DNA of 64,000 nucleotides from Methylophilaceae bacterium (GTDB lineage Bacteria > Pseudomonadota > Gammaproteobacteria > Burkholderiales > Methylophilaceae), in the NCBI GenBank assembly GCA_013141125.1, contig JABFRO010000003.1, forward strand, positions 358,458 through 422,457. Direction: 5' to 3'. The position numbers and the translations under genes were made by a program. This document shows positions 10,660 to 64,000 of the stretch, piece after piece. The notes below the pieces were generated by a model that was given only the letters and a program-made list of their open reading frames with translations, was not told the DNA's origin and did not search any database. Position 1 is the stretch's first letter. Each line of letters opens with the position of its first letter.

Positions 10660-12426
10660 ATGTCATCGACAAAAACTCCAATTCTCGCCGCTTCCAATTT
10701 TATTCGTCAAATCATTGAGCGTGATATTGAGCAAGGCACGTACGCCACTCGCCGCTGGGCGGGTTCACCGGGCGATGCCGCGTATCAGGCTGCAGGCTTG
10801 CCTGATCCCGCCAAAATTCGCACCCGTTTTCCGCCCGAACCGAATGGCTATTTGCATATTGGCCATGCCAAATCCATCTGTCTGAATTTTGGTCTGGCGC
10901 GCGATTATGACGGCGTGTGCCATATGCGCTTTGATGACACCAACCCGGAAAAAGAAGAACAGGAATACGTGGACAGTATCACCGATGCCGTGCAATGGTT
11001 GGGCTTTGGCTGGGAGGCTTTCGGCACTTCGCATTTGTATTACGCCAGCAATTATTTTGATTTCATGTACCGCGCGGCAGAGGCTTTGATTCAAAGCGGC
11101 CATGCTTACGTCGATCAGCAAACGGCGGAAGAAATGCGTGCCAATCGCGGCACGCTGACCGAAGCGGGCAAGGATTCGCCCTGGCGTAATCGTCCGGCGG
11201 AAGAATCGCTGGCGCTATTCCGCGAAATGCGCGATGGTAAACACGCCGATGGCAGCCTGATACTGCGCGCCAAAATCGACATGGCCGCGCCCAATATCAA
11301 TCTGCGCGACCCCGCCATTTACCGCATCAAACGTGCCACGCATCACAATACCGGCGATAAATGGTGCATTTATCCCATGTATACCTTTGCGCACCCGATT
11401 GAAGACGCGCTGGAACAAATCACCCACTCCATCTGTACCCTGGAATTTGAAGACCAACGCCCGTTTTATGACTGGCTGCTGGAACGGCTGGTAGAGGCGG
11501 CTTTGTTGGCACAGCCGCTACCCAAACAATATGAATTCGCCCGCCTCAACCTGACTTATGTGGTGCTTTCCAAACGCAAACTGATAGAGCTGGTGGAAAA
11601 CCATCACGTCAGCGGCTGGGATGACCCACGCCTGCCCACGCTGGCCGGTGCGCGCCGTCGCGGCTATACGGCAGAAGGCTTTCGCTTATTTGCCGAACGC
11701 ATCGGTGTTTCCAAGGCTGATTCCTGGATTGAATACACCATACTTGAAGATTGCATGCGCGAAGTGCTCAACATTTCCGCCGAACGCCGTATCGCCGTGC
11801 TCGACCCCATCAAGCTGGTAATCAACAACTATCCTGAAAACCAATCCGAAGACTGCTTTGCGCCCAATCATCCACTCAAACCAGAGCTGGGCAAGCGCGT
11901 AGTGCCGCTCACCAGAGAGCTGTGGATAGAACGCGAAGATTTCGAGGAAACCCCGCCCAAAGGCTATTTCCGCCTCACCCCCGGCGGCCTGGTGCGTCTG
12001 CGCTATGGCTATGTGGTGAAATGCACCGGGTTTGAAACAGATGCCGACGGTAAAATCACTGTGGTGCATTGCGAATACTTGCCCGACACCAAATCCGGCA
12101 CGCCGGGTTCCGACAGCATCAAAGTCAAAGGCAATATCCACTGGGTTTCCGTCAACCACGCCTACGCCGCCGAAGTGCGCCTGTACGACCGACTATTCAA
12201 GGAAGCCCACCCCGGTGCAGGCGATAGCAACTATCTGGACGACATCAACCCCAACTCAGTTAAAACCATCATCGCGCAACTGGAACTCAGCTTGAAGGAG
12301 GCTCATGCAGAAGACCGATTCCAGTTTGAACGCCACGGCTACTTTGTGGCCGACAGAAAAGACAGTGTGGCGGGCAGGCCGGTATTTAACCGGACGGTGA
12401 CATTGAGGGATGCCTGGCAGAAGTAA
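10660..12426 (+). CDS. glnS: Glutaminyl-tRNA synthetase
   Basis: 588 residues. A class I aminoacyl-tRNA synthetase charging tRNA-Gln. The HIGH motif is in PPEPNGYLHIGHAKSI and the KMSKS-equivalent is VVLSKRKL. GlnRS-specific stretches include MRFDDTNPEKEEQEYVDSI and WDDPRLPTLAGARRRG. The C-terminal anticodon-binding beta-barrels end with FNRTVTLRDAW. Length is slightly above E. coli GlnRS (554). Divergent from birA. Confidence 0.98.
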   Translation: MSSTKTPILAASNFIRQIIERDIEQGTYATRRWAGSPGDAAYQAAGLPDPAKIRTRFPPEPNGYLHIGHAKSICLNFGLARDYDGVCHMRFDDTNPEKEEQEYVDSITDAVQWLGFGWEAFGTSHLYYASNYFDFMYRAAEALIQSGHAYVDQQTAEEMRANRGTLTEAGKDSPWRNRPAEESLALFREMRDGKHADGSLILRAKIDMAAPNINLRDPAIYRIKRATHHNTGDKWCIYPMYTFAHPIEDALEQITHSICTLEFEDQRPFYDWLLERLVEAALLAQPLPKQYEFARLNLTYVVLSKRKLIELVENHHVSGWDDPRLPTLAGARRRGYTAEGFRLFAERIGVSKADSWIEYTILEDCMREVLNISAERRIAVLDPIKLVINNYPENQSEDCFAPNHPLKPELGKRVVPLTRELWIEREDFEETPPKGYFRLTPGGLVRLRYGYVVKCTGFETDADGKITVVHCEYLPDTKSGTPGSDSIKVKGNIHWVSVNHAYAAEVRLYDRLFKEAHPGAGDSNYLDDINPNSVKTIIAQLELSLKEAHAEDRFQFERHGYFVADRKDSVAGRPVFNRTVTLRDAWQK

Positions 12427-12428
12427 TC

Positions 12429-12758
12429 ATGCTCCCAAACGGAAAATCTGCTTTTGTAGATATTGCTAAAATCGCAGACTACTGTTTGAATGACCCGCAC
12501 CCTGAAGGAAGACACAAAGCCAGAGTTTTTCAATCCGTTTTAGGTTTGAATGTGAGTGATGCCTTGTATTTGCAAAGCATTATCTTCAAGGCAGCAGCGG
12601 AAAACACAGCAATCAAAACTGAAACCGATCAATACGGCGCGCGTTACATTTTGGATTTTGAACTAACGATCAATATGCGTAGTGCCATAATCAGAACTTG
12701 CTGGATAATTCGTACCCAAGAAGATTTTCCAAGGTTAACTACCTGTTATTTATTGTAG
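12429..12758 (+). CDS. DUF6883 domain protein
   Basis: 109 residues starting two bases after the glnS stop. Visible family-like segments are LPNGKSAFVDIAKIADYCL, GRHKARVFQSVLGL and the C-terminal TCWIIRTQEDFPRLTTCYLL. I recognise the DUF6883 pattern, which often sits beside a DUF4926 gene, as here 10 bases downstream. The biochemical role is unknown. The pairing and small size suggest a toxin/antitoxin- or toxin/immunity-like unit, which is inference only. Confidence 0.75.
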   Translation: MLPNGKSAFVDIAKIADYCLNDPHPEGRHKARVFQSVLGLNVSDALYLQSIIFKAAAENTAIKTETDQYGARYILDFELTINMRSAIIRTCWIIRTQEDFPRLTTCYLL

Positions 12759-12768
12759 AGGAGCAAAC

Positions 12769-12972
12769 ATGAAACTACTCGATGTGGTTGCACTTACCCA
12801 GAGTCTCCCGGAAAAACACCTTACGCGTGGTCAGGTGGGCACCATAATTGAAGAATTGGATACCGGCGTTTACGAAGTGGAATTCAGTGATCTGAATGGT
12901 AAAGCCTACGCCATGGCCGCAGTAGAAGAACGCAACTTGATGCCTTTGTTGCATTGCGCAATCGCGGCCTGA
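12769..12972 (+). CDS. DUF4926 domain protein
   Basis: 67 residues, ATG preceded by GAGGAG. The small beta-rich domain reads VVALTQSLPEKHLTRGQVGT, EVEFSDLNGKAYAMAAVEER, a good match to DUF4926. It follows DUF6883 by 10 bases and its stop overlaps the start of the decayed zeta-like gene (TGATG). This suggests one short accessory operon. Function is not established for the family. Confidence 0.78.
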   Translation: MKLLDVVALTQSLPEKHLTRGQVGTIIEELDTGVYEVEFSDLNGKAYAMAAVEERNLMPLLHCAIAA

Positions 12973-51304: not shown

Positions 51305-51676
51305 ATGGACAAACTTACTGCAACAAGCGTTTTTGAATCACTGGCTTCCGGCGTGCGCTTGGATGTGTTTCGGCTTTTGGTCAAACAAGGGTTGGACGGC
51401 ATGGTGGCGGGTGAAATCGCCAGCACACTGGAGCTGCCGCCGACCAATCTTTCGTTTCACCTGAAAGCCTTGACGCAGGCGCGCCTGCTGCGTGTGGAGC
51501 AGGAAGGACGCTATCAGCGTTACCGCGCCAATATTCCCTTGATGCTGGATTTAATCGCTTACTTAACCGAAGAATGTTGCGCTGGCAATCCGCAGCAATG
51601 TATGGATCTGCGCGCCGAGTCCTGCTGTTCCAGTGATTTATTACCGCCAATTTCAGATAACTCAACCAAACTCTAA
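51305..51676 (+). CDS. arsR: ArsR family arsenic-responsive repressor
   Basis: 123 residues. A winged HTH with MVAGEIASTLELPPTNLSFH and LKALTQARLLRVEQEGRYQR. It lacks the ELCVCDL metal motif of the classic R773 ArsR. Instead, C91, C92 and C99 lie after the HTH (TEECCAGNPQQC), with more at C107-C108, a C-terminal As(III) site like the Acidithiobacillus type. It heads the ars operon. No ribosome site is visible because the operator reaches to two bases before the ATG. Confidence 0.95.
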   Translation: MDKLTATSVFESLASGVRLDVFRLLVKQGLDGMVAGEIASTLELPPTNLSFHLKALTQARLLRVEQEGRYQRYRANIPLMLDLIAYLTEECCAGNPQQCMDLRAESCCSSDLLPPISDNSTKL

Positions 51677-51679
51677 ACC

Positions 51680-52159
51680 ATGAACATTCTGTTTTTATGC
51701 ACCGGTAACTCCTGCCGTTCCATTCTCGGCGAGGCCACGTTCAATCATCTGGCTCCGGCCGGATGGCGCGCCATGAGTGCAGGCAGCCAACCGGCGGGTT
51801 ATGTGCATCCGCGTTCGCTGGCATTGCTGGCGGCGCAAGGCATCGCCACCGAGGGCTATCACAGCAAATCCTGGGCGGATTTACCTGCCGTGCCGGATAT
51901 TGTGATTGGCGTATGCGGCAACGCGGCGGGTGAAACCTGTCCCGCCTATCTGGGCGCGGTATTGCGCACGCATTGGGGCGTGGCTGATCCCGCGCGTGTG
52001 ACCGGCACGGATGAAGAAATTGAAGTTGCCTTCATGCAGGCTTACCGCATTCTGCGTGCCCGCATTGAAGCTTTTTTTGCATTACCGCTGCATCAGTTAC
52101 AGCACGATAAATCAGCGTTGAAAGTTGAAATGGACAAGATTGCCAGCCTCATTAATTAG
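51680..52159 (+). CDS. arsC: Arsenate reductase, LMW-phosphatase/thioredoxin type
   Basis: 159 residues. The P-loop CX5R is C7-TGNSC-R13, and other Cys fall in IGVCGNAAGETC, as in the thioredoxin-coupled ArsC family. It reduces As(V) to As(III) for export. It lies three bases after arsR; its stop is followed after ten bases by arsD. Confidence 0.93.
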   Translation: MNILFLCTGNSCRSILGEATFNHLAPAGWRAMSAGSQPAGYVHPRSLALLAAQGIATEGYHSKSWADLPAVPDIVIGVCGNAAGETCPAYLGAVLRTHWGVADPARVTGTDEEIEVAFMQAYRILRARIEAFFALPLHQLQHDKSALKVEMDKIASLIN

Positions 52160-52169
52160 GAGAAATCAA

Positions 52170-52535
52170 ATGACAAAATCAATAGAAATTTTCGACCCCG
52201 CCCTGTGCTGCAACACCGGCGTATGCGGGGTGGATGCCGATCAGGCCTTAATCAGTTTTGCTGCCGATGTGGCTTGGGCAAAACAGAATGGCGCGCAGAT
52301 TGAACGCTTTAATCTGGCGCAACAGCCGCTGGAGTTTGCCAACAATTTGGTGGTGAGAAGTTTTCTTGAGCGCTCCGGCCAGGAAGCCTTGCCGCTGATT
52401 TTGGTCGATGGTGAATTTGCTTTGGCAGGGCGTTATCCAAATCGCTTGGAACTGGCGCGATGGGCTGAAATCGCCCAGGCAGTTGTTGAAATAAAACCGG
52501 CAGGCGCATGTTGCAGCGGCAGTAAATGTTGTTAA
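52170..52535 (+). CDS. arsD: Arsenic metallochaperone/repressor
   Basis: 121 residues from ATG 52170 with AGGAG upstream. The As-binding Cys13-Cys14 and Cys19 are in DPALCCNTGVCGVD, and two more Cys pairs lie in the last ten residues (ACCSGSKCC). IERFNLAQQPLEFANN and LPLILVDGEFALAGRYP are family stretches. It delivers As(III) to ArsA, the next gene. Confidence 0.95.
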   Translation: MTKSIEIFDPALCCNTGVCGVDADQALISFAADVAWAKQNGAQIERFNLAQQPLEFANNLVVRSFLERSGQEALPLILVDGEFALAGRYPNRLELARWAEIAQAVVEIKPAGACCSGSKCC

Positions 52536-52549
52536 ATCAAGGCCATGCC

Positions 52550-54322
52550 ATGAACTTTTTAAATCACCCCCCGCGTTTTCTGTTTTTCACCGGCAAGGGC
52601 GGCGTAGGTAAAACCTCCATCGCCTGCGCTTCAGCCATACAGTTGGCAGAATCAGGCAAGCGTGTGTTGCTGGTGAGTACCGATCCGGCTTCCAATGTCG
52701 GGCAGGTGTTCGGCATCAGCATTGGCAACCAGATCACGGCAGTTCCCGCCGTGCCGCGTTTGGCAGCACTGGAAATTGACCCGCAGGCGGCAGCGCAGAC
52801 TTATCGCAATCGCATCGTTGATCCGGTGCGAGGCATTTTGCCCGAGGCGGTAGTCAAAGGTATAGAGGAGCAATTATCCGGCGCTTGCACCACAGAAATA
52901 GCCGCTTTTGATGAATTTACCGCCTTGTTGATTGACTCTGCGTTAACCGCTGATTACGACCATATTCTCTTCGATACCGCGCCCACCGGGCACACTATTC
53001 GACTCTTGCAATTGCCCGGTGCCTGGAGTGGGTTTCTGGAGGCGGGCATTGGTGATGCTTCCTGCCTTGGCCCTTTGTCCGGTTTGGCCAAACAACGCGA
53101 GCAATATCAGGCCGCTGTGGAGGCGCTTGCCGATGGTCAGCGTACACGGCTGATTCTGGTGGCGCGCGCGCAAACCTCCACCTTGCGTGAAGTTGCTCGC
53201 ACCCATGAAGAACTCGCCGCGATAGGTTTACAGCAACAATATCTGGTCATCAACGGCATTCTGCCCGTAGCGGAAGCAGACCATGATGCGTTGGCGGCAG
53301 CCATCTATAAACGCGAGCAAGCCGCGCTGAATGTCATGCCTGAAGTGTTGAAAGCGCTGCCGCAGGATAGCGTGGCGCTGAAAGCCTTTGATCTGGTGGG
53401 GCTAGCAGCCTTACGTCAGTTGCTGCAAACTACGCCGCAGGCCACCCCAGCCGCCAATCAAGCACCGATTAGCTTTAATAAACCCAGTCTTTCGCAATTG
53501 GTGGATAGCATCGCGGCAGATGGCCACGGCTTGGTCATGCTGATGGGTAAAGGCGGCGTAGGCAAAACCACCATCGCCGCCGCTATTGCCGTGGAACTGG
53601 CGCAGCGCGGCTTTGCCGTACACCTTAGCACCTCCGACCCTGCCGCGCATCTGGCCAATACGATAAATAGTGTGCCGAATAGCGCACTTGAAAATATGAG
53701 TGTGAGCCGTATTGATCCCCACGCGGAAACCGAGCGTTATCGCCAGCAGGTTCTGCAAACTAAAGGCGCACAACTGGATGCCGCAGGCCGCGCTTTGCTG
53801 GAAGAGGATTTACGTTCCCCCTGCACCGAAGAAATTGCCGTGTTTCAGGCTTTCTCGCGCATTATTCGCGAAGCGGGTAAAAAGTTTGTGGTGATGGATA
53901 CCGCCCCCACCGGACACACCTTGCTGTTATTGGACGCGACCGGTGCCTATCATCGTGAAGTGGCGCGCCAAATGGATAATGCCCATCTGCATTTCACCAC
54001 ACCCATGATGCAATTGCAGGATAGCGGGCAAACCAAAGTCCTCATCGTCACGCTGGCCGAAAAAACTCCGGTGCTGGAAGCCGCCAACTTGCAAGCCGAT
54101 CTGCGCCGAGCCGGTATTGAACCCTGGGCATGGGTGATTAACAACAGTGTGGCCGCCACTTCGACCAGCTCACCCTTATTGCGGCAAAGAGCCATTAACG
54201 AAATGCATGAAATCAAAAGCGTGGCCGAGCAACACGCCCGGCGCTACGCGGTTGTGCCCATGCTGAAAGAAGAACCAGTAGGCGTGCCAAGGTTGCTGGA
54301 GTTGGCTGGAAATCGCCATTAA
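52550..54322 (+). CDS. arsA: Arsenite-stimulated efflux ATPase
   Basis: 590 residues from ATG 52550 (in-frame starts lie further upstream inside arsD). Two homologous halves each have a P-loop ([14 protein letters not shown] near 20, [14 protein letters not shown] near 337) and a DTAPTGHT signal motif. As(III)-binding Cys lie in [26 protein letters not shown] and [11 protein letters not shown], matching C113/C172/C422 of R773 ArsA. It energises efflux through Acr3. Confidence 0.97.
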
Positions 54323-54363
54323 CTTTTGGCTTAAATTGCCGGAAAAACAGTCAAGAGGACGTT

Positions 54364-55437
54364 ATGAACCAACCAGCCAACCAACAAATCTGCAAAAACC
54401 CCGGGTTATCTTTTCTCGACCGTTATTTAACGCTGTGGATTTTTGCGGCAATGGCGCTGGGGGTGGCAATTGGTTTTGCTTTCCCTGCGGGTGTGAATGC
54501 TTTAAATAGCGCCGTTTCCGTAGGCACGACCAACATCCCCATTGCCATCGGTTTGATTCTGATGATGTACCCGCCGCTGGCCAAAGTGCATTACGAAGAG
54601 TTGGGCGATGTATTTCGCAACTGGAAAGTGCTGGCAATCTCGCTGCTGCAAAACTGGATCATCGGCCCGTTGCTGATGTTTGCGCTGGCGATTCTGTTTC
54701 TGCGCGATTACCCGGAATACATGACAGGCCTGATCTTAATCGGTTTGGCACGCTGTATTGCCATGGTGATCGTATGGAACGAGCTGGCACGCGGTGATAA
54801 TGAATATGCCGCCGGGCTTGTCGCTTTTAACAGCATATTTCAGGTGCTGTTTTACGGCGTATATGCCTGGTTGTTCATCACTGTATTGCCGCCGCTGTTT
54901 GGTATGCAAGGCAGTCTGGTCAACATCACTATAGGCGAGATCGCCAAAAGCGTGTTCATTTATCTGGGCATTCCCTTTATTGCCGGTTTTACCACACGTT
55001 TTGTATTGATACGCAGCAAAGGCCGTGATTGGTACCAGCACAACTTTGTGCCGAAAATCAGTCCGCTGACGCTGATAGCCCTGCTGTTCACCATCATGGT
55101 GATGTTCTCGCTCAAGGGCGATTTGATCGTGCAGCTACCACTGGATGTGGTGCGCATTGCCATCCCTCTGTTTATCTATTTTGTAGTGATGTTTTTGATC
55201 AGTTTTTTGATGGGCAAAGCGATTAATGCGGGTTATGAAAAAACCACCACACTGGCCTTCACCGCCGCCAGCAACAACTTTGAACTGGCCATCGCCGTTG
55301 CCGTTGCCGTGTTCGGTATCAACAGTGGCGTGGCCTTCGCCGCCGTGATTGGACCCTTGATTGAAGTGCCGGTGATGATCGCGCTGGTGAATGTGGCTTT
55401 TTACTTGCGCAAACGTGTATTCGCTAGCGCAATATGA
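54364..55437 (+). CDS. acr3: Acr3-type arsenite efflux permease
   Basis: 357 residues with about ten helices. The key Cys is in [16 protein letters not shown]-like [15 protein letters not shown], and the conserved Glu lies in [18 protein letters not shown]. Both mark the bile/arsenite/riboflavin superfamily Acr3 group. Located 42 bases after arsA. Completes the ars operon; converges with bufC. Confidence 0.95.
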
Positions 55438-55466: not shown

Positions 55467-56225
55467 CTACAGATGCATGGACAAGATAGTCTGTGAGCGA
55501 ATAAGCAGACCGAGAATGGCTGTAAGGTCAAAATCCTGATGGTCACGACTGGTTTGTTCCATTGCCATACCAAGCGTTGCCCCCTGTAACAGCTGCGCAA
55601 CAAAATCACCGGCACTGGCATGCAGGCGTATTGCTTCGACTTCCAATTGTGGCCGGATTACCAATGCGGTTTCGGGCGTGTAAGGGTCAATCGTTGAAAT
55701 ATCGGCAATCCCCTGATGTGCCGCCCACAGTGATACCACGGCGTATGGAGATTTAAGTAGGCTCAGTGCGGGGTGAAACTGAATCTGCAGTCGCGGTAAA
55801 TTTTCGCCATCAGTTAAAACTTGCGCGATGCTGTCGGCGCTTAATGCCAGCGCATCCGTAGCATGATAGGCATGCACCCGTTGCATTTCCAGGCGAGCGA
55901 CATCGGCTAAATACGGCACCGTGGCGGCTGGCGGAAACTGTTCAATAAAGCGGGCAAACGATACGCCATAGAATGCCAGCACGCGTGAGCGGGGTGGCTC
56001 TGCCTTAACATAAAGCTGTGCCATGGCACGAAAAAATGCCTCACCGACCAGTGCCTGCGTGACCGGAAACGTATCCGCCAGCGCATTAACCAGCGAAACC
56101 TGCACATTGTTGCGGTATACCGCGAAACGGGCGGCCGGGTCGGAGCCGTTCCAGGTAAGGAGTCCGGCAGGGGGCGGCAACTCGGCATTTAACAGGGCGG
56201 CGACGAATTTCTGCTGTGAGCTCAT
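55467..56225 (-). CDS. bufC: DUF2063 protein, bufferin partner BufC/HvfC-type
   Basis: 252 residues. An N-terminal DUF2063 domain with [32 protein letters not shown] and [17 protein letters not shown], then a less conserved C-terminal domain. The family helps the MNIO enzyme recognise its precursor. Its start overlaps the stop of bufB by four bases. Confidence 0.88.
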
Positions 56226-57124
56226 GCTTTGCTTGCCTGCACTGAATGCACTTGAAGCAAACGTTCCGCCAGCTGGCTTTCCGCGAATAGCACATCAAAA
56301 GTCGGGATGTCGTTGTCGCGTTCCAGCAGTGTTGGTGCAGTGCCGATTTGTTTCAACGCAAATGCATACAGTTGCCAAACCGCTTGGGCGACGGGCGTAC
56401 CATGGCTGTCGATCAGCAACGGGTCGCCATTGGCATCCTGTTCCTGTGCAAATCCGGCCAGATGAATTTCGCCCACAGCTTGCGGCGGTAAGGCACGAAT
56501 ATAGTCATGCGCATCGCGATGATGGTTAATGCAAGAGATATAAACGTTGTTGACATCCAGCAGAAGACCGCAGCCAGTGCGGCGCAATATTTCGTTGATG
56601 AACTCGGTTTCTGTCATGGATGATGCAGAAAATTCAATATACGTCGCCGGGTTTTCCAATAACATGCGGCGTTTGAGATGCGATTGCACCTGGTCTATAT
56701 GTTCACAAACCCGTTGCAGCGTTTGCGCGGTATACGGCACTGGCAGTAAATCGTTCAAAAACACTTCGCCATGGCTAGACCATGCCAGATGTTCGGAAAA
56801 CGACTGCGGTGCATAACGCTCGATCAATGCGGACAGTTGCTTGAGATGTGTCAGATCAAGTGCCGTTTCAGCGCCTATGGATAAGCCGACACCGTGGATG
56901 GAGAGTGGATAGCGTTCACGGATACGTGTCAGGTAATGATGGAAAGTACCACCGCCAACCATGTAGTTCTCGGCGTGAATTTCAAAAAAGCCAAGATCAG
57001 GCCAGGTTTCAACAATCTGCCGGAAATGTTCTGGTTTTAGCCCCACGCCGGCACGCAATGGCAGGGTGGTGGTTTGAGTGGAAGCGCCGCGAGGTGGTGA
57101 CACCGGGGTGTGGAGTGGCATCAT
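56222..57124 (-). CDS. bufB: DUF692/MNIO multinuclear iron oxidase, bufferin maturase
   Basis: 300 residues. The TIM-barrel metal ligands are spread over [57 protein letters not shown] and LIDSHG. The MNIO family oxidatively rearranges Cys in RiPP precursors (to thiooxazoles in bufferins, and in methanobactin). Sits between bufA1 and bufC. Iron content is inferred from family. Confidence 0.92.
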
Positions 57125-57149
57125 CTTGGGCGCTTCCTGTTTGATAGCC

Positions 57150-57440
57150 TTACTTGCTGTTCGCTTTAAATGCGGCCAGCTGTCCGTAACCCGTGGCTGA
57201 AGTTTTAGAGGCGGTTTTTTCGCAAGTGCCAGTCGGGACTAACTTCCAGGCATCAGCCTGGTAATCCGTTTTGGAACTGCCAGCGCACGAGGTGCCAGCG
57301 CCAGCGCAATCATTCTTGCCCTTGAGTGCAACACCAAAGCATTTTTCGCCATCAGCGGCGGCAACAGCGGGTACAGCAACAACGGTCAGAGCTGCGCCCA
57401 AAGCCATAGCAAGGGCGGTAGCGGTTGTTTGTTTCAACAT
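57150..57440 (-). CDS. bufA1: BufA1 (DUF2282) bufferin-type metallophore precursor
   Basis: 96 residues from ATG 57440, with AAGGAAAA upstream. A signal peptide ends near AVAAADG. The core has four Cys, C34, C45, C52 and C73, in [25 protein letters not shown] and GTCEKTA, as in bufferins that bind copper after modification. Upstream 290 bases (57441-57732) hold no gene and should contain the promoter. It is the first gene of bufA1-bufB-bufC. Confidence 0.92.
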
Positions 57441-57732
57441 GGGTTTTCCTTTTTGGTGAGTTATCATTTGCCCTGAATGATTAGCATCAATAGATTCAAT
57501 CATACAAGGGCACTTATCAAGCAAAGACAGGGTAAATAATACACAGTTGTGTCTGGTTTGTGCGCCTGCCTTTAGCTTGGACGCAGGGATGATTGATTCC
57601 TTACATTATTTTTCAAAATAATTTTGGCTTGCGCTTTGAGCGCTGAATCTACGATTGCTGGCATTTGAAATTGAATGCTTAGGCACTATGTGAAATACAG
57701 TGGGTAATTAAATTTCAATAGTTGCATGATAT

Positions 57733-59868
57733 TCAACCTCTTTTCCAATTGTGAAACTTTTCTACCCAGTTGAGGATACCATGCGGCACATGCGCACGTT
57801 TCCATTCGCCAGCGGCGTATTTGTTGGCTTCTGACCAGGTGGGGTAGGTGTGAATGGTGCCGAGGATTTTGTTTAAGCCTAGCCCGTGTTTCATGGCGAG
57901 TACAAATTCTGCCAGCAAGTCACCCGCGTGTTCGCCGACAATGGTTGCACCTAAAATTTTATCTTTACCAGGCACAGTGAGCACTTTGACAAAACCATGC
58001 GCGGCTTCGTCGGCAATAGCGCGATCCAGGTCATCCAGGCCATATTTCACCACTTCATAAGCTATGCCTTGTGCTTTGGCTTCATTTTCTGATAAGCCAA
58101 CGCGCGCGACTTCCGGGTTGGTAAACGTTGCCCATGGAATCACTGAGTAATCGGCTTTAAAGCGTTTTAGGCTGCCAAATAGCGTGTTCACTGCCGCATA
58201 CCAGGCTTGGTGCGCTGCGGTGTGGGTGAATTGATAAGGCCCTGCCACATCGCCTGCGGCGTAGATATTAGGGTAGCGCGTTTGTAGCCAGGCATCGACT
58301 TCAATAGTGCGGTTTTTTGATAATGGAATACCTAATTCTTCCAAACCAAAACCTTCGGTACGCGCGGTTCTACCCACTGCACAAAGTAGGGCATCAAATG
58401 CAATGGCTTCTTCTACACCTGCTTTATTGCGTACGATCAAGCGTTGTTGACCATTAATATCACGTTCACAGCGCACAGTGTTGGTGTGCGTCAATACTCG
58501 GATGCCATCTGCGATTAAGGCTTCTTCCACCAATGCGACGGCATCAGCGTCTTCTTTGCCCATCAGGCCGCTACGCGCTACTTGTGTAACTTGGCAATCA
58601 AGGCGAGCAAAGGCTTGTGTCAGTTCACAACCAATCGGGCCGCCACCCAGTACCACCAGGCGATTAGGGCGTTTGGTGAGCGACCAAATAGTGTCTGACG
58701 TATAGTGCGTCACTAGTTCCAAGCCTGGGATATTGGGGATTGTGGGTCGCCCGCCTGTAGCAATGACGATGGCACGGGTGGTGAGTGTTTGCCCGTTCAC
58801 TTCTACTGTCCAAGGCGAAGTGATGCGGGCATAGCCTTGCACCACGTCTACACCTAATTGGGTATAGCGTTCAACCGAATCATGCGGCTCAACGGTGCTG
58901 ATGACGCGATGCACACGGCGCATCACATCGGCAAAATCATAGTCAACAACCGCTTTGGCAATACCTAGTTTTGCTGCATGTTTTGCCTGATTTACAAAAG
59001 TAGCTGAACGAATAATGGCCTTGGAAGGCACACAGCCATAATTCAAGCAATCGCCGCCCATTTTATGACCTTCAATCAGCGTGACTTTGGCGCGTGTGGC
59101 GGCAGCAATGTATGAAGTCACCAAGCCTGCCGCACCTGCGCCTATCACGACTAAGTTGCGGTCAAACTTTTTAGGTTTAGGCCATTTTGCATAAAGCTGG
59201 CGTGTTTTATAGGCATTCACCGCCCATTTTGCCAGCCAAGGGAAAATACCGAGTAAAGCGAATGAGCCAATAAGGGCCGGGGATAGAATGCCAGACAGGC
59301 TGGTGAGTGAGGTCAGCTGTGTGCCTGCATTCACATAAACCGCCGTGCCAGCCGCCATGCCAGCCAGGCTCACCCAAAAGTAAGTGCTGGTTTTAAGCGG
59401 GGTCAGTCCCATCAGCAAATTGATGAGAAAAAATGGAAACACGGGGACAAGGCGCAAGGTAAACAGGTAAAACGCGCCGTCTTTTTCAATGCCAGCATTA
59501 AATGCTGAGAGTTTGTCGCCAAAATGTTTTTGGATAGAATTGCGCAACACAAAGCGCGCCGCTAAAAACGCCAAGGTTGCACCGATAGTGGCGGATACCA
59601 GCACCACAGGCACGCCCACCCACAACCCGAAAATAGCACCGCCCGCCAGAGTCATAATGGTCGCCCCTGGCAATGATAGCGCAGTGACGACAATATAAAT
59701 CACCGCAAAGATGGCGATAACCAATAATGGCTTGGCTTGATAGGTTTGCAGTAAACCATCGCGGCTGGCTTTGAGCGCGTCCAAACTTAAAAATCGCTCA
59801 ATATCAAAGGCAAAAAATAGCCCGATTAACACAATGACGAGTGCCATAATCCATGCACGATTTTTCAT
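57733..59868 (-). CDS. TVP38/TMEM64 membrane domain fused to MerA-like flavin disulfide reductase
   Basis: 711 residues. Residues 1-225 are a VTT/SNARE-associated membrane domain (TALSLPGATIMTLAGGAIFG, FTLRLVPVFPFFLIN), then a second GAGAAGL Rossmann motif begins at about 242. The flavin half carries redox C274-x4-C279 in GGDCLNYGCVPSKA, an NAD motif VVLGGGPIGCELTQ, FAD-binding IYAAGDVAGPYQ and the C-terminal HTYPTWSEA. It lacks a Hg-binding CC tail and heavy-metal domain. Last gene of the arsenic-associated cluster. The substrate is unknown. Confidence 0.85.
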   Translation of the reverse strand: MKNRAWIMALVIVLIGLFFAFDIERFLSLDALKASRDGLLQTYQAKPLLVIAIFAVIYIVVTALSLPGATIMTLAGGAIFGLWVGVPVVLVSATIGATLAFLAARFVLRNSIQKHFGDKLSAFNAGIEKDGAFYLFTLRLVPVFPFFLINLLMGLTPLKTSTYFWVSLAGMAAGTAVYVNAGTQLTSLTSLSGILSPALIGSFALLGIFPWLAKWAVNAYKTRQLYAKWPKPKKFDRNLVVIGAGAAGLVTSYIAAATRAKVTLIEGHKMGGDCLNYGCVPSKAIIRSATFVNQAKHAAKLGIAKAVVDYDFADVMRRVHRVISTVEPHDSVERYTQLGVDVVQGYARITSPWTVEVNGQTLTTRAIVIATGGRPTIPNIPGLELVTHYTSDTIWSLTKRPNRLVVLGGGPIGCELTQAFARLDCQVTQVARSGLMGKEDADAVALVEEALIADGIRVLTHTNTVRCERDINGQQRLIVRNKAGVEEAIAFDALLCAVGRTARTEGFGLEELGIPLSKNRTIEVDAWLQTRYPNIYAAGDVAGPYQFTHTAAHQAWYAAVNTLFGSLKRFKADYSVIPWATFTNPEVARVGLSENEAKAQGIAYEVVKYGLDDLDRAIADEAAHGFVKVLTVPGKDKILGATIVGEHAGDLLAEFVLAMKHGLGLNKILGTIHTYPTWSEANKYAAGEWKRAHVPHGILNWVEKFHNWKRG

Positions 59869-59906
59869 GGGTTTTTCCGATTCTATTTTAATAGTTGATG
59901 GAGCAA

Positions 59907-60848
59907 TTACATTTCGCTACAAGATGCGCCGTACCTAAAGCAGCTATAACAACGGTGGTGCTTCATGCTGACAGGTTCTTTCATGCTTTCCGTGAGGGTT
60001 TCAGCGAGTGCGTAATCAGGGTCATCATCCACCAGTGTGCAGGCATACACGCGCATTTTGTCCTTATCTTTTACTATCATCTTGCTAAAAGCGCACATAT
60101 AAGCACGGCGCGTATCCTCGGTTTGGTAAGTCACCATGCAGTTGGCACTGATGTGCGGCGTTGCTACAGCCAAACCTGGTGGATGAAAGTCTGGAAATTC
60201 CACACGGCGCAAATCTTCAGGCAAGCCTGCTTTTTTAAACACTTCAACAAAGCCTGCGCATGTTTCGGCAGGTGTGCTGTCAGCCAGCATTTGGTTGGCT
60301 ACCGAAACTGAGAAACCCAGATCGTGTAATGCACGCAAGCCTTGTAACGCCATTGCAAACATGCCCACTCCACGGCCGATGTCATGCTTAGTCGCATCAA
60401 AGTGGTCTAAACTTACACGGAAATGCAGTTTATTTTGATGCTGTAATAAGGGCTTGAGTTGTTTTAAACGCTCAATCAATGGCCCTGTAGCATTGGTCAA
60501 CACCATGCACGGGCGATGTTGCAGGGCATAATCTAAAATGCGTACCATATCTTTGGCGACAAATGGCTCGCCTCCCGTAAATGAAAACTGCTTCACGCCT
60601 AACGTGAGGGCTTCATCAATAAACGGTTGTGCGTCCGCAAAGCGTAACAACTGCAAACGCGTGTCCCCGGGTTTTGAGCCTTCCAGGCAAAACGGACAAG
60701 CCAGATTACAAGCCGTGCCGGTATGAAACCACAACTCATCCAGCGCATGGGGTTGAATAAAGCCACGCGGTTCGCCGGCTGGGGTTTGAAACCATGCCGC
60801 TGATTTTGCTGGTTTCTCCAGTTGAATCGGGATGATCTTCGTGTCCAT
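59907..60848 (-). CDS. Radical SAM enzyme of arsenic-associated cluster
   Basis: 313 residues from ATG 60848; it overlaps the arsM stop by one base. SAM cluster C47-x3-C51-x2-C54 in GTACNLACPFCLEG. Middle landmarks are FSFTGGEPFVAKDMVRIL and LHFRVSLDHFDATKHD. C-terminal Cys in YACTLVDDD and CYSCFRYGASC may bind an auxiliary cluster. It does not look like ArsS of classic arsenosugar loci, which has a different Cys-rich tail. It may replace that step, by context. Confidence 0.8.
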   Translation of the reverse strand: MDTKIIPIQLEKPAKSAAWFQTPAGEPRGFIQPHALDELWFHTGTACNLACPFCLEGSKPGDTRLQLLRFADAQPFIDEALTLGVKQFSFTGGEPFVAKDMVRILDYALQHRPCMVLTNATGPLIERLKQLKPLLQHQNKLHFRVSLDHFDATKHDIGRGVGMFAMALQGLRALHDLGFSVSVANQMLADSTPAETCAGFVEVFKKAGLPEDLRRVEFPDFHPPGLAVATPHISANCMVTYQTEDTRRAYMCAFSKMIVKDKDKMRVYACTLVDDDPDYALAETLTESMKEPVSMKHHRCYSCFRYGASCSEM

Positions 60849-61915
60849 TAGCAGCAAGCACCTGTGGCATCTGCGGCTTGGTTGGCATAGGGCAGGGCAG
60901 TGCCGCAACCAGCGAAAATACCAAAGTGCTTGTCAAAATTCCCAAAGAAATCAAAATGTTTGGCAAAGCGTGTGTCGTGCAACATGCGCCATGTGTTGCC
61001 GCACACGGGGAACTGCTTCCCTGTTTCAATAAAGTGATGTTTATCCAACACAAAAGCATGCGGATGATTGGGTATGGTGCCACGATAGACGACCGATTGC
61101 CCGTAATCCTCGCAAGCGGGTTCCAAGCCTGTTAATTTGAATAGCCGATAAGTGGCGGAGAAAAATTGGATATTGCCCGTGCGCGCTACAATGTCTTTAT
61201 TGTCTATGGTAATCGGTCTGTCATCTACCAGGCGCGGATCATCAAAGCCATGGGCTTTGGCGAGGTGGTGAAAATCATTCCAATACAGCGCACCGCCCAA
61301 GCATTCGCCATAAAGTACAGGGTCTTGGGTTAGGGCTTGGGGGATGCGTCTATCGGCATAGACATCAGAAAAATACAGCTCGCCACCAGGTTTGAGTACC
61401 CGGAAAGCCTCACGCAACACAGCGCCTTTATCCACCGCCAAGTTAATCACGCAGTTGGACACAATCACATCCACACTGTTATCGGCTAAATCCAGCTCGT
61501 GCAGGCGCTCAATGTAGCCGTGTAAAAACAGTACATTGCTTTCAGCATGACCAAATGCTATTTGATGATAATCTTGATGCTGGCGTGCGACGGTTAGCTG
61601 TTCTTCGGTCATATCCACGCCGATGACGTGCCCTTGTTCACCGACCAATTTGGAGATGACGTAAACATCGCGCCCTGCGCCGCAACCTAAATCCAGCACG
61701 GTTAATCCATCGAGCAATTCAGGCAACACCAGGCCGCAACCGTAGTAGCGCATCAAAACTTCATCATGCACTTGCGAGAGAATGGGTTTGACGTAATCAG
61801 GCAAGCCGGCATCGGTGCAGCAGGCATTGGTTTGTAAATCGGCAGAATTGGTCAGCGTTTTGCCATAATAATCTTGTACGGATTGTTGTATTTGTTGGGC
61901 GTTGGTGTTTTCCAT
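60848..61915 (-). CDS. arsM: Arsenite S-adenosylmethionine methyltransferase
   Basis: 355 residues from ATG 61915. SAM motif I LTVLDLGCGAGRDVYV. The As-binding Cys fall at C60 (YYGCGLVLPE), C155 (VSNCVINLAVDKG) and C205 (GECLGGALYW), the 155-205 spacing equal to that of algal ArsM. An N-terminal CC at 32-33 resembles a fourth site. C-terminal domain with LEPACEDYGQSVVYRGTIP. The product is methylated arsenic, a precursor of organoarsenicals. The rSAM gene overlaps its end. Confidence 0.93.
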   Translation of the reverse strand: MENTNAQQIQQSVQDYYGKTLTNSADLQTNACCTDAGLPDYVKPILSQVHDEVLMRYYGCGLVLPELLDGLTVLDLGCGAGRDVYVISKLVGEQGHVIGVDMTEEQLTVARQHQDYHQIAFGHAESNVLFLHGYIERLHELDLADNSVDVIVSNCVINLAVDKGAVLREAFRVLKPGGELYFSDVYADRRIPQALTQDPVLYGECLGGALYWNDFHHLAKAHGFDDPRLVDDRPITIDNKDIVARTGNIQFFSATYRLFKLTGLEPACEDYGQSVVYRGTIPNHPHAFVLDKHHFIETGKQFPVCGNTWRMLHDTRFAKHFDFFGNFDKHFGIFAGCGTALPYANQAADATGACC

Positions 61916-61940
61916 TGCATGATTCCGTTTTAAAATGAAT

Positions 61941-62633
61941 TTATAGTTGCGTAATGTGACTGCGGTATAGTTTGGCAAGCTGTTCAGGCGATTTCCCATA
62001 CGCAAAAGCCAGCGCAAATTGTCTGTTTTGAAGTGTACGCCGCCACCAGCCATCACGCTGCCAACGGCGCGGGTCAACAAATAAAGGTACATCCAAGGCC
62101 ATAAAACGGCCTGATTTGCGTAAGCCTTTTACCAGTGGTACCTCTTCAAATAAAGGCCAGGGTGCGTGTCCGCCTGCTTGTACATAAGCTTGTTTAGTCA
62201 TAAACAAGCCCTGGTCACCATAAGGAATACCAAAGCGGCAGCGCAACGCAATGGCAGGTTCTAATAAATAAGCTGGCCAAGCGCGTGGCGTATCAAACTT
62301 AAATTTAAAGTAGCCGCCCACCGCGCCTTTTTCAAGAGCGCGTTCCATTGCCGTAATGGGGTCTTTGGGTAAACGTGCATCAGCATGTAGAAACCACAAC
62401 ACCTCACTTTGTGCGATGGCCACGCCAGCGAGAAGCTGCTTGCCGCGACAAGGTTCACTTGGCAACCAAATGGCGTGAAATTGCTGACAAATGGCCTGGC
62501 AAGTTTGACTCGCTGCGCCGTCCACCACAATCACCTCGCGCGGTGTATGTGGCAAATGCTGAATTTGCGCGAGTAATTGCGCTAACTTTTGCTCATCGTG
62601 ATAGCACGGAATGATAATGCTCAGGCTAGGCAC
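61941..62633 (-). CDS. TIGR04283-type glycosyltransferase (arsenosugar-associated)
   Basis: 230 residues. Start MPSLSIIIPCYHDEQKLAQ, VIVVDGAASQTCQAI, LWFLHADARLPKDP and FGIPYGDQGLFMTK fit the short GT2 family that occurs beside ArsM and TIGR04282. It overlaps the next upstream gene by eight bases. It probably transfers sugar to or builds the arsenosugar scaffold. The role rests on gene neighbourhood. Confidence 0.87.
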   Translation of the reverse strand: MPSLSIIIPCYHDEQKLAQLLAQIQHLPHTPREVIVVDGAASQTCQAICQQFHAIWLPSEPCRGKQLLAGVAIAQSEVLWFLHADARLPKDPITAMERALEKGAVGGYFKFKFDTPRAWPAYLLEPAIALRCRFGIPYGDQGLFMTKQAYVQAGGHAPWPLFEEVPLVKGLRKSGRFMALDVPLFVDPRRWQRDGWWRRTLQNRQFALAFAYGKSPEQLAKLYRSHITQL

Positions 62634-63324
62634 GGTGTGCTTCCATCGTCCGCGTAACTTGCGCGGTTAGCTGATACAGTGCGCGTCTGGCTGGGCGTTT
62701 ATCGTCTTTCAGCGCACTTAACACCAAAGCCAAATCATCTACTTCGTCCACATCAAAGCCGCTAGCGAGCATCACCGTTGTATGGCCATCTTGCTTGCAC
62801 TGCAAGGCGAGTTCATCTCCCAATTCTGAAGTGCTCCAAGGCAAATCCGTTAAGTCTGGCCATGATTTGCGGCTTGCCATGAGTGAAACGCCACCATCCA
62901 AAGTTGGCTTCAATACCGTGTCGTTTATTAAAAGCAAGGCTATGCTTTCAATAAAATCCTGCGTGTTGAGCGTGGGCGCATCGCTCCCAATAAAAATGAG
63001 CTGGTTAAATCCTCTATTACGCAAAGTGCTATCCAAGGCATTTATGCGCTGCCCAAGATTACCGTCAATTTGCGGTAATACGCTTACATTCAAGCGGGCA
63101 TCGCCATGTTGCTTACCTAAAGTGTCCGCCCAATCTGCATCATGCGCACTCGCTGGCGCAATGACTACCGCACCGGCCCAGGCGAATACCTCCTCCAATG
63201 TGCAATCCAGCAGTGCCTGTGCAATTTTAAGAGCAACTTCTTGTCCCAATGCTGCGGCAATACGCTGCTTGCCCACCCCCAAGGCGGGACGTTTACACAT
63301 TAACACTAAGGCGGTTTTATTCAT
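62626..63324 (-). CDS. TIGR04282-type nucleotidyl/glycosyltransferase-like protein (arsenosugar-associated)
   Basis: 232 residues from ATG 63324. TALVLMCKRPALGVGKQRIA, LIFIGSDAPTLNTQDF and VLKPTLDGGVSLMASRKSWP mark the family (DUF2064). The GDA motif is in FIGSDAPTL. First gene of the five-gene minus-strand cluster, so its upstream region holds the promoter. The reaction is not established. Confidence 0.87.
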   Translation of the reverse strand: MNKTALVLMCKRPALGVGKQRIAAALGQEVALKIAQALLDCTLEEVFAWAGAVVIAPASAHDADWADTLGKQHGDARLNVSVLPQIDGNLGQRINALDSTLRNRGFNQLIFIGSDAPTLNTQDFIESIALLLINDTVLKPTLDGGVSLMASRKSWPDLTDLPWSTSELGDELALQCKQDGHTTVMLASGFDVDEVDDLALVLSALKDDKRPARRALYQLTAQVTRTMEAHRA

Positions 63325-63365: not shown

Positions 63366-63403
63366 CCATGGATTTAGAAACCTATGGGCTATTTAATCCA
63401 TGG
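63366..63403. promoter_or_regulatory. Inverted repeat upstream of the arsenic-modification cluster
   Basis: CCATGGATT (63366-63374) and its exact inverse AATCCATGG (63395-63403) lie 42 bases before the first gene. Nine-base arms with 20 bases between could be an operator. It differs from the arsR palindrome. Confidence 0.35.
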
Positions 63404-63559: not shown

Positions 63560-64000
63560 ATGGAGGCATATTTAAGGTTGGGTATTTTTATAGGCGTGTA
63601 TTTATTGGCCGCCTTATTGGAAGCGTATTTTCCTAAACGGCCGCCCACACAATCCAGGCGCACACGCTGGCGGATTAACTTCAGCCTGGTGGGCATCGAC
63701 ATTTTGGTGCAACGGTTGACGGTTGGCGCTGCCGCTTATTTAACTGCTGTCTATGCCCAAACGCATGGCTGGGGCTTGCTGCATGTATTGGATTTGCCGT
63801 TTTGGCTGACGGCACTCATTGCTTTTTTAGCCTTGGATTTTGCCATCTATTTGCAGCATGTCATGTCGCACGCCCTGCCTGTTTTTTGGCGGCTACACAG
63901 CGTACATCATGCCGATTTGGATATTGATGCCAGTAGTGGGCTGCGCTTTCACCCGCTTGAAATCCTCATTTCTCTTCTGTATAAATCGTTAATTGTGGCG
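63560..64000 (+). CDS. Sterol desaturase/fatty acid hydroxylase family membrane protein, partial
   Basis: Frame open from ATG 63560 (AAGGG at 8-10 bases upstream) to the window edge; 147 residues visible. Hydrophobic helices MEAYLRLGIFIGVYLLAALL and LPFWLTALIAFLALDFAIYL. The di-iron histidine motifs begin with QHVMSH (HxxxH), then LHSVHHADLD (HxxHH) and RFHPLEI. The third His cluster would be beyond the edge. Related proteins are integral membrane hydroxylases of lipids or carotenoids. Divergent from the arsenic cluster. Confidence 0.85.
   Translation, partial: MEAYLRLGIFIGVYLLAALLEAYFPKRPPTQSRRTRWRINFSLVGIDILVQRLTVGAAAYLTAVYAQTHGWGLLHVLDLPFWLTALIAFLALDFAIYLQHVMSHALPVFWRLHSVHHADLDIDASSGLRFHPLEILISLLYKSLIVA

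Follow-up and report, generated by a model that had tools for sequence, protein, structure and literature searches.

The stretch of DNA examined here (the window) comprises 64,000 nucleotides of contig JABFRO010000003.1 from the Methylophilaceae bacterium assembly GCA_013141125.1. At 57733-63324 it carries five minus-strand genes, one of which encodes a radical S-adenosylmethionine (SAM) enzyme that likely takes the place of ArsS in an arsenosugar-type cluster. Open reading frames and profile scans of the window proteins confirmed the position and spacing of all five genes, described in an earlier note as tightly packed or overlapping. In the direction of transcription they encode a TIGR04282-type protein, a TIGR04283 glycosyltransferase, an ArsM-like methyltransferase, the radical SAM enzyme, and a fusion of a TVP38 membrane domain with a flavin adenine dinucleotide (FAD) oxidoreductase.

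The TIGR04282-type gene (DUF2064 in Pfam; 62626-63324, with an alternative in-frame ATG at 63369) scored 110.6 bits against an NCBIfam cut-off of 134, and its only other family match was a weak one to CofC. It overlaps by 8 nucleotides the gene for a TIGR04283 arsenosugar glycosyltransferase of the GT2 family (61941-62633), which belongs to TIGR04283 at 197.5 bits (cut-off 182) and is also matched by Pfam GT2. After 25 nucleotides follows the gene for a 355-residue ArsM-like As(III) methyltransferase (60848-61915). NF008823 is the best family for this protein, yet its 192.8 bits fall below the cut-off of 263, and the arsenosugar ArsM model NF038099 gave 94.4 of 400 bits. Its cysteines lie in NACC, YYGCGL, SNCV, and YGECL, which we take to be the four known ArsM cysteines. 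The arsM stop and the start of the radical SAM gene (59907-60848; PF04055, 58.5 bits) have one base in common (TAATG), so that translational coupling of the two is predicted from their overlap. Another 38 nucleotides separate the radical SAM gene from the fusion gene (57733-59868), whose product carries a CLNYGC motif and, by Pfam, consists of a TVP38/TMEM64 (VTT) membrane domain (PF09335, residues 69-183) and an FAD-dependent pyridine-nucleotide-disulfide oxidoreductase (PF07992, 238-555; PF02852, 577-685). Mercuric reductase (MerA) was considered for the FAD half and rejected, with TIGR02053 at 367.5 bits below the cut-off of 454.45.

The radical SAM protein stays far below the cut-offs of both its best family and ArsS. 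Its top NCBIfam match was NF049973 (Rv1681), at 98.8 bits against a cut-off of 380, and TIGR04167, the ArsS model, gave 44.0 bits where its cut-off is 300. A tree of 110 sequences places the window protein in a clade holding all 49 of its relatives picked for spread (clade A, support 0.90). The sister of clade A is a second group of 18 out of 18 sequences (clade B, support 1.0; A and B together, 0.99). All 29 ArsS sequences form one clade (support 0.998) separate from both, with the qualification that the outgroup came from one genome and that few or no other twitch/SPASM families were in the tree, so that the placement of ArsS relative to A and B is not fixed. Usable frames came from 29 of 30 ArsS loci and 14 of 16 other radical SAM loci, and the ArsS and clade B sequences were read from stop to stop and then trimmed with a gap filter. 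The earlier note's statement that the enzyme is distinct from ArsS therefore holds on both its position in the tree and its score.

The same note had the CX3CX2C motif and the cysteine-rich end right, and both are present, but it went wrong in holding that the cysteines do not follow the ArsS layout. In a 316-residue frame, C273, C303, C306, and C313 match ArsS cysteines throughout the alignment, and together with the three radical SAM cysteines they are aligned in 49 of 49 clade A, 18 of 18 clade B, and 29 of 29 ArsS sequences. One further upstream cysteine occurs in nearly all 96 sequences (C255, in 48 of 49 from clade A), and C240 is an additional cysteine of clades A and B. The combination of CX3CX2C with C-terminal auxiliary cysteines is thus found in the window protein without being diagnostic of ArsS. 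Twitch/SPASM-like domains and their cysteines are widespread among radical SAM enzymes, so the shared auxiliary cysteines are no proof of kinship.

An AlphaFold2 model of the enzyme (pLDDT 90.0, pTM 0.88) fits a radical SAM core followed by a twitch/SPASM-like domain. The nearest solved folds are BlsE (7vob; Z 20.0, root-mean-square deviation 3.3 over 245 residues) and SkfB (6efn; Z 19.2, 3.2 over 238 residues). No ArsL or ArsS chain is among the solved structures listed as fold matches, which excludes nothing. The enzyme could be orthologous to ArsS, though strongly diverged, instead of belonging to a separate family, and an hhalign comparison of the two families (97.5% probability over 264 columns) and the common cysteine layout speak for this. 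Set against the score to TIGR04167, the separate clades, and the closer relation of clade A to clade B than to ArsS, however, orthology seems very unlikely; the shared domain is one common in twitch/SPASM enzymes, and a distant common origin is possible.

Among 229 genomes sampled from the class, 6 had a match to the radical SAM enzyme, five of clade A and one of a type at 36% identity. Named genomes with matches include Methylotenera, Nitrosomonas, Nitrosospira, Nitrosovibrio, Marinobacterium, Motiliproteus, Amphritea, and Emcibacter, and matches occur also in some Kiritimatiellae, Omnitrophota, and others. The named-genome scan is represented by the best 80 of 248 confirmed matches, and its counts describe nearest relatives. 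These 80 loci, four from the class sample, and one plasmid make up the 85 clade A loci surveyed (L003-L006 and L008-L088; L046, L069, L082, and L084 were located by tblastn). L007 and L089 belong to clade B and stand outside this set. Six relatives have 83-86% identity to the window protein, five of them in Methylotenera assemblies, which makes a methylotrophic betaproteobacterium the probable host.

Within 9 kb of the radical SAM gene, these 85 loci contained ArsM in 47, TIGR04282 in 57, TIGR04283 in 57, the TVP38 fusion in 43, and a 5'-methylthioadenosine (MTA) phosphorylase (MTAP) in 12 (11 at more than 60 bits). At least one partner was found in 76 of 85: 6 of 6 at 80% identity or more, 23 of 24 at 62-80%, and 47 of 55 below 62%, where gene orders vary. 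ArsM was near in 6 of 6, 22 of 24, and 19 of 55 loci of these same bands, so that the distant relatives are linked mainly to partners other than ArsM. To the earlier note's question whether homologs are mostly unlinked to arsM, the survey answers no, as more than half are linked, but by a thin margin that owes much to the closer relatives. The window's genome has 18 radical SAM matches and a single ArsM match, and only one of the 18 is close to it. Against this background, the partners kept in 76 of 85 loci show that linkage is not due to chance, an explanation that recurrence under different gene orders rules out.

A radical SAM enzyme with a nonarsenic substrate or a general role could still merely travel with arsenosugar genes. 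Nine loci without any partner are compatible with this (L035, L051, L053, L056, L061, L064, L072, L085, and L088), as are the transaldolase- and pgl-like genes seen by eye near L051, L061, and L072. So is the habit of clade B, which is mostly unlinked, with TIGR04282 and TIGR04283 near the gene in 2 of 15 neighborhoods (14 and L144) and, by eye, zwf/pgl-type genes near it in 5 of 16 clustered loci (L190, L195, L198, L199, and L201). The recurrence of linkage even in the most distant band, the overlap of the radical SAM start with the arsM stop, and the absence of ArsS from every searched carrier genome, described below, make such a role improbable. At L035, L053, and L085, three of the nine partnerless loci, the sequence runs out on one side less than 150 bases from the gene. 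L088, a Marinobacter adhaerens plasmid copy near 12000-12925, is an unannotated match in two pieces and looks broken. On the side of clade B, a Roseomonas plasmid locus (L089, 3013-6894) adds a TIGR04282 gene. There the clade B gene has another radical SAM gene next to it, together with DUF547, this TIGR04282 gene, and an ABC transporter of the phosphonate type.

ArsS is common in the class, with matches in 116 of the 229 genomes at 1e-30. At a looser threshold of 1e-20 it was found in 0 of 41 clade A genomes, which were chosen from the loci, mainly for longer contigs (40 are distinct, G140 and G247 being the same by coordinates; L074 was not included). Another 21 genomes, 4 with clade A and 17 with clade B, likewise gave no ArsS, and a search of the window's genome gave 0 matches. 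In the class sample, ArsS was found in 0 of 5 clade A genomes versus 116 of 229 overall (probability 0.028), and of the 75 genomes in it with ArsM, ArsS occurs in 61 and clade A in 4 of the remaining 14 (Fisher p 0.0008); the genomes in these counts share ancestry and are not independent trials, so both values overstate independence. In 55 of the 116 ArsS-bearing class genomes there was no ArsM match (NF008823, 1e-35). Such genomes would either import methylarsenicals or rely on another methyltransferase.

The surroundings of ArsS resemble those of clade A. Twenty ArsS neighborhoods contained TIGR04283 in 14, TIGR04282 in 12, the TVP38 fusion in 4, and this type of ArsM in 4 (clustering of the same loci gives 13 and 13 for the first two), and a cluster MTAP had no match in any of the 20. 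The closest parallel is a plasmid of Acinetobacter portensis (L222, 3187-12244), where an ArsS cluster has nearly the same gene set as the window, in the order sterol desaturase, mtnP, phosphate transporter, methyltransferase, TIGR04282, TIGR04283, DUF547, TVP38-FAD, and ArsS. Identity to the proteins of the window's genome is 63% for ArsM, 56% for TVP38-FAD, and 44% for the sterol desaturase, and none of the 85 clade A loci contained a match to the A. portensis ArsS. Because ArsS loci often share the partners of clade A and the two radical SAM enzymes are mutually exclusive in the genomes searched, the same arsenosugar pathway with one enzyme substituted is the likelier interpretation, and the alternative organoarsenical pathway put forward in the earlier note is less likely than was suggested there. 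That note's description of a variant arsenosugar-type cluster with a non-ArsS radical SAM stands, apart from the cysteine layout, which is not unlike that of ArsS. Among the openly licensed papers listed in our literature searches, none was recognizable by its title, opening abstract lines, or passages as an account of an ArsS replacement.

We consider it likely that the clade A enzyme is a non-orthologous replacement of ArsS in a cluster for arsenosugar-type biosynthesis and detoxification, in which its reaction would be followed by phosphorolysis, nucleotidyl activation, and glycosyl transfer. Each reaction is proposed from gene context and fold. ArsM would methylate As(III) to give dimethylarsenite. 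The radical SAM enzyme would then cleave SAM and place its 5'-deoxyadenosyl group on the arsenic to form 5'-deoxy-5'-dimethylarsinoyl-adenosine, which is the product of ArsS, an enzyme reportedly studied by Cheng et al. in 2021. Where an adjacent MTAP of the adenine type is present, it would split off adenine to leave arsinoyl-ribose-1-phosphate. The TIGR04282 protein, a nucleotidyltransferase of the CofC type by fold, may activate this sugar-1-phosphate or the aglycone, and TIGR04283 would join the two. The TVP38-FAD oxidoreductase may provide redox power or membrane handling. PMC12159101, with reference to the ArsS paper, ascribes adenosylation of arsenic in oxo-arsenosugar biosynthesis to a radical SAM enzyme.

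The activation step is suggested by the predicted structure of the TIGR04282-type protein (pLDDT 96.7). Its nearest folds include 3cgx (Z 25.8) and 2i5e (Z 20.9), and it also resembles the 3-phosphoglycerate guanylyltransferase 7p97 (Z 19.8, 188 residues) and Rv2983 (Z 17.9, 194 of 232 residues). TIGR04282 is named as a glycosyltransferase; the model instead has a CofC-type guanylyltransferase fold, of the CofC/FbiD type over most of its length, although the reaction cannot be read from the fold by itself. Because of this fold, the protein may activate a sugar-1-phosphate, or an aglycone of the glycerate or glycerol type, ahead of TIGR04283.

The MTAP is the next gene after the radical SAM in some gamma- and alphaproteobacterial loci. 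Seven genomes with such a cluster MTAP (G139, G248, G250, G253, G254, G256, and G263) contained mtnA in none and MTAN in six. Five with a TIGR01694 match elsewhere (the window's genome, G000, with G133, G140, G257, and G261) contained mtnA in all and MTAN in none, and G235 had neither. Since mtnA is absent from all seven of its genomes, the cluster MTAP probably does not serve methionine salvage. The 11 cluster MTAPs that were aligned, including the mtnP of A. portensis, group together and all have a D-x-D motif (TDYDCW, TDFDCW, or TDYDSW), and the seven other readable TIGR01694 proteins have N in place of D (N-x-A in six, N-x-G in that of G140; G133 was left out of this comparison). In phosphorylases of this kind, D at this position goes with adenine and N with 6-oxopurine substrates. 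We therefore did not take every TIGR01694 match for an MTAP, as the motif looks to be of the 6-oxopurine type in G000, G140, G233, G235, G241, G257, and G261. The presence of a phosphorylase for 5'-modified adenosines where methionine salvage is missing agrees with the radical SAM enzyme making a 5'-deoxyadenosyl arsenical.

The MTAP also bears on whether the enzyme could be of the ArsL type, forming a carbon-arsenic bond with another group, for example 3-amino-3-carboxypropyl, so that glycosylation would act on another organoarsenical. ArsL is likewise a radical SAM enzyme encoded beside arsM, and according to PMC8552651 it transfers 3-amino-3-carboxypropyl in arsinothricin biosynthesis, for which ArsL and ArsM suffice. 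If chemistry of this type took place, MTA should be released, and a neighboring MTAP could use it. MTAN is available for MTA in six of the seven MTAP host genomes tested, however, and all seven lack mtnA. A ribose product is also a better fit for nucleotidyltransferase and glycosyltransferase partners. The architectures differ as well, since the same source gives ArsL 428 residues, a motif at 194-201, and three conserved cysteines, while the motif of the window protein lies at about residue 50 of 313 and at least six more cysteines are conserved. We regard the ArsL-type reading as quite unlikely.

Several observations weigh against replacement of ArsS as we propose it, in addition to the shared ancestry of the genomes counted above. 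The nearest sequence family is Rv1681 instead of ArsS, and neither of the nearest folds (BlsE and SkfB) is that of an arsenic enzyme. Nine of the 85 loci are without any partner, ArsM is close in little over a third of those below 62% identity, and the MTAP neighbor occurs in few. A search of the window's genome for MTAN found none, and its only TIGR01694 match lies far from the cluster and has N-x-A without D-x-D, which leaves adenine removal there without an assigned enzyme. A close ArsM was missing at 1e-40 in 13 of the 41 clade A genomes, and a wider ArsM profile gave only weak matches in 2 of these, a gap that the ArsS-bearing genomes described above have in common with them. It is conceivable, if rather unlikely, that clade A is a second family of radical SAM enzymes forming carbon-arsenic bonds with a product other than that of ArsS. 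This would be a novel arsenical carrying adenosyl or another alkyl group, perhaps on arsenic that is not dimethylated, given the 13 genomes without a close ArsM, and it would feed an undescribed glycosylated organoarsenical of ammonia oxidizers, methylotrophs, and marine bacteria.

Adjacent to the cluster on the plus strand, on the side of lower coordinates, is an arsenic resistance operon of ArsR, ArsC, ArsD, ArsA, and Acr3 (51305-55437); ArsA (920.5 bits) and Acr3 (461.1 bits) are above their profile cut-offs, and the other three were identified by eye from the sequence. Between acr3 and the cluster is a bufferin-type set (55467-57524), in which the MNIO maturase BufB is above its cut-off and the matches to a BufA2-like peptide and a HvfC/BufC-like DUF2063 protein are below theirs. 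On the other side, the start of a divergent gene of the sterol-desaturase/fatty-acid-hydroxylase family (63560-64000, plus strand) extends beyond the end of the window. Similar genes occur in 5 of the 85 clade A loci and 3 of the 20 ArsS loci, as well as beside the Acinetobacter cluster, and the desaturase is possibly a companion of the cluster. In three alphaproteobacterial clade A loci (L052, L060, and L063), an extracytoplasmic function (ECF) sigma factor and a small anti-sigma-like protein (profile-scanned in L063) are encoded between the oxidoreductase genes and TIGR04282, and sigma genes are found in 3 of the 20 ArsS loci too.

If the proposed replacement is correct, ArsS is not the sole bacterial route to the adenosylation of arsenic, and potential arsenosugar producers such as Nitrosomonas, Nitrosospira, Methylotenera, Marinobacterium, and Amphritea are missed when ArsS serves as the survey marker. 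Clade A is an uncharacterized family of radical enzymes in nitrifying, methylotrophic, and marine bacteria without ArsS, and the cluster would supply a candidate chain of adenine-type phosphorylase, CofC-like nucleotidyltransferase, and glycosyltransferase for the steps after adenosylation.

Compared with known systems, the likeness to NF049973 is confined to the radical SAM core, a relative of the window protein reaching 110 bits, and BlsE and SkfB, the closest folds, have about 20% identity and act on nonarsenic substrates. The arsQML system described in PMC8552651 resembles the window in that arsM and a radical SAM gene stand together in an arsenic operon, and its ArsQ partner and the length, motif position, and cysteines of ArsL set it apart by description. 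Among MTA phosphorylases, two scanned cluster MTAPs are just above the TIGR01694 cut-off of 274.85 bits, and the cluster MTAPs group apart from the other sampled members, with no mtnA in their seven tested host genomes. From ArsS itself the window enzyme differs by its separate clade and its extra Cys240, and no genome in our searches had both enzymes. The two nevertheless share CX3CX2C, a C-terminal arrangement of MC...C...CX2C...SC, often TIGR04282 and TIGR04283 as neighbors, less often ArsM and TVP38-FAD, and once mtnP.

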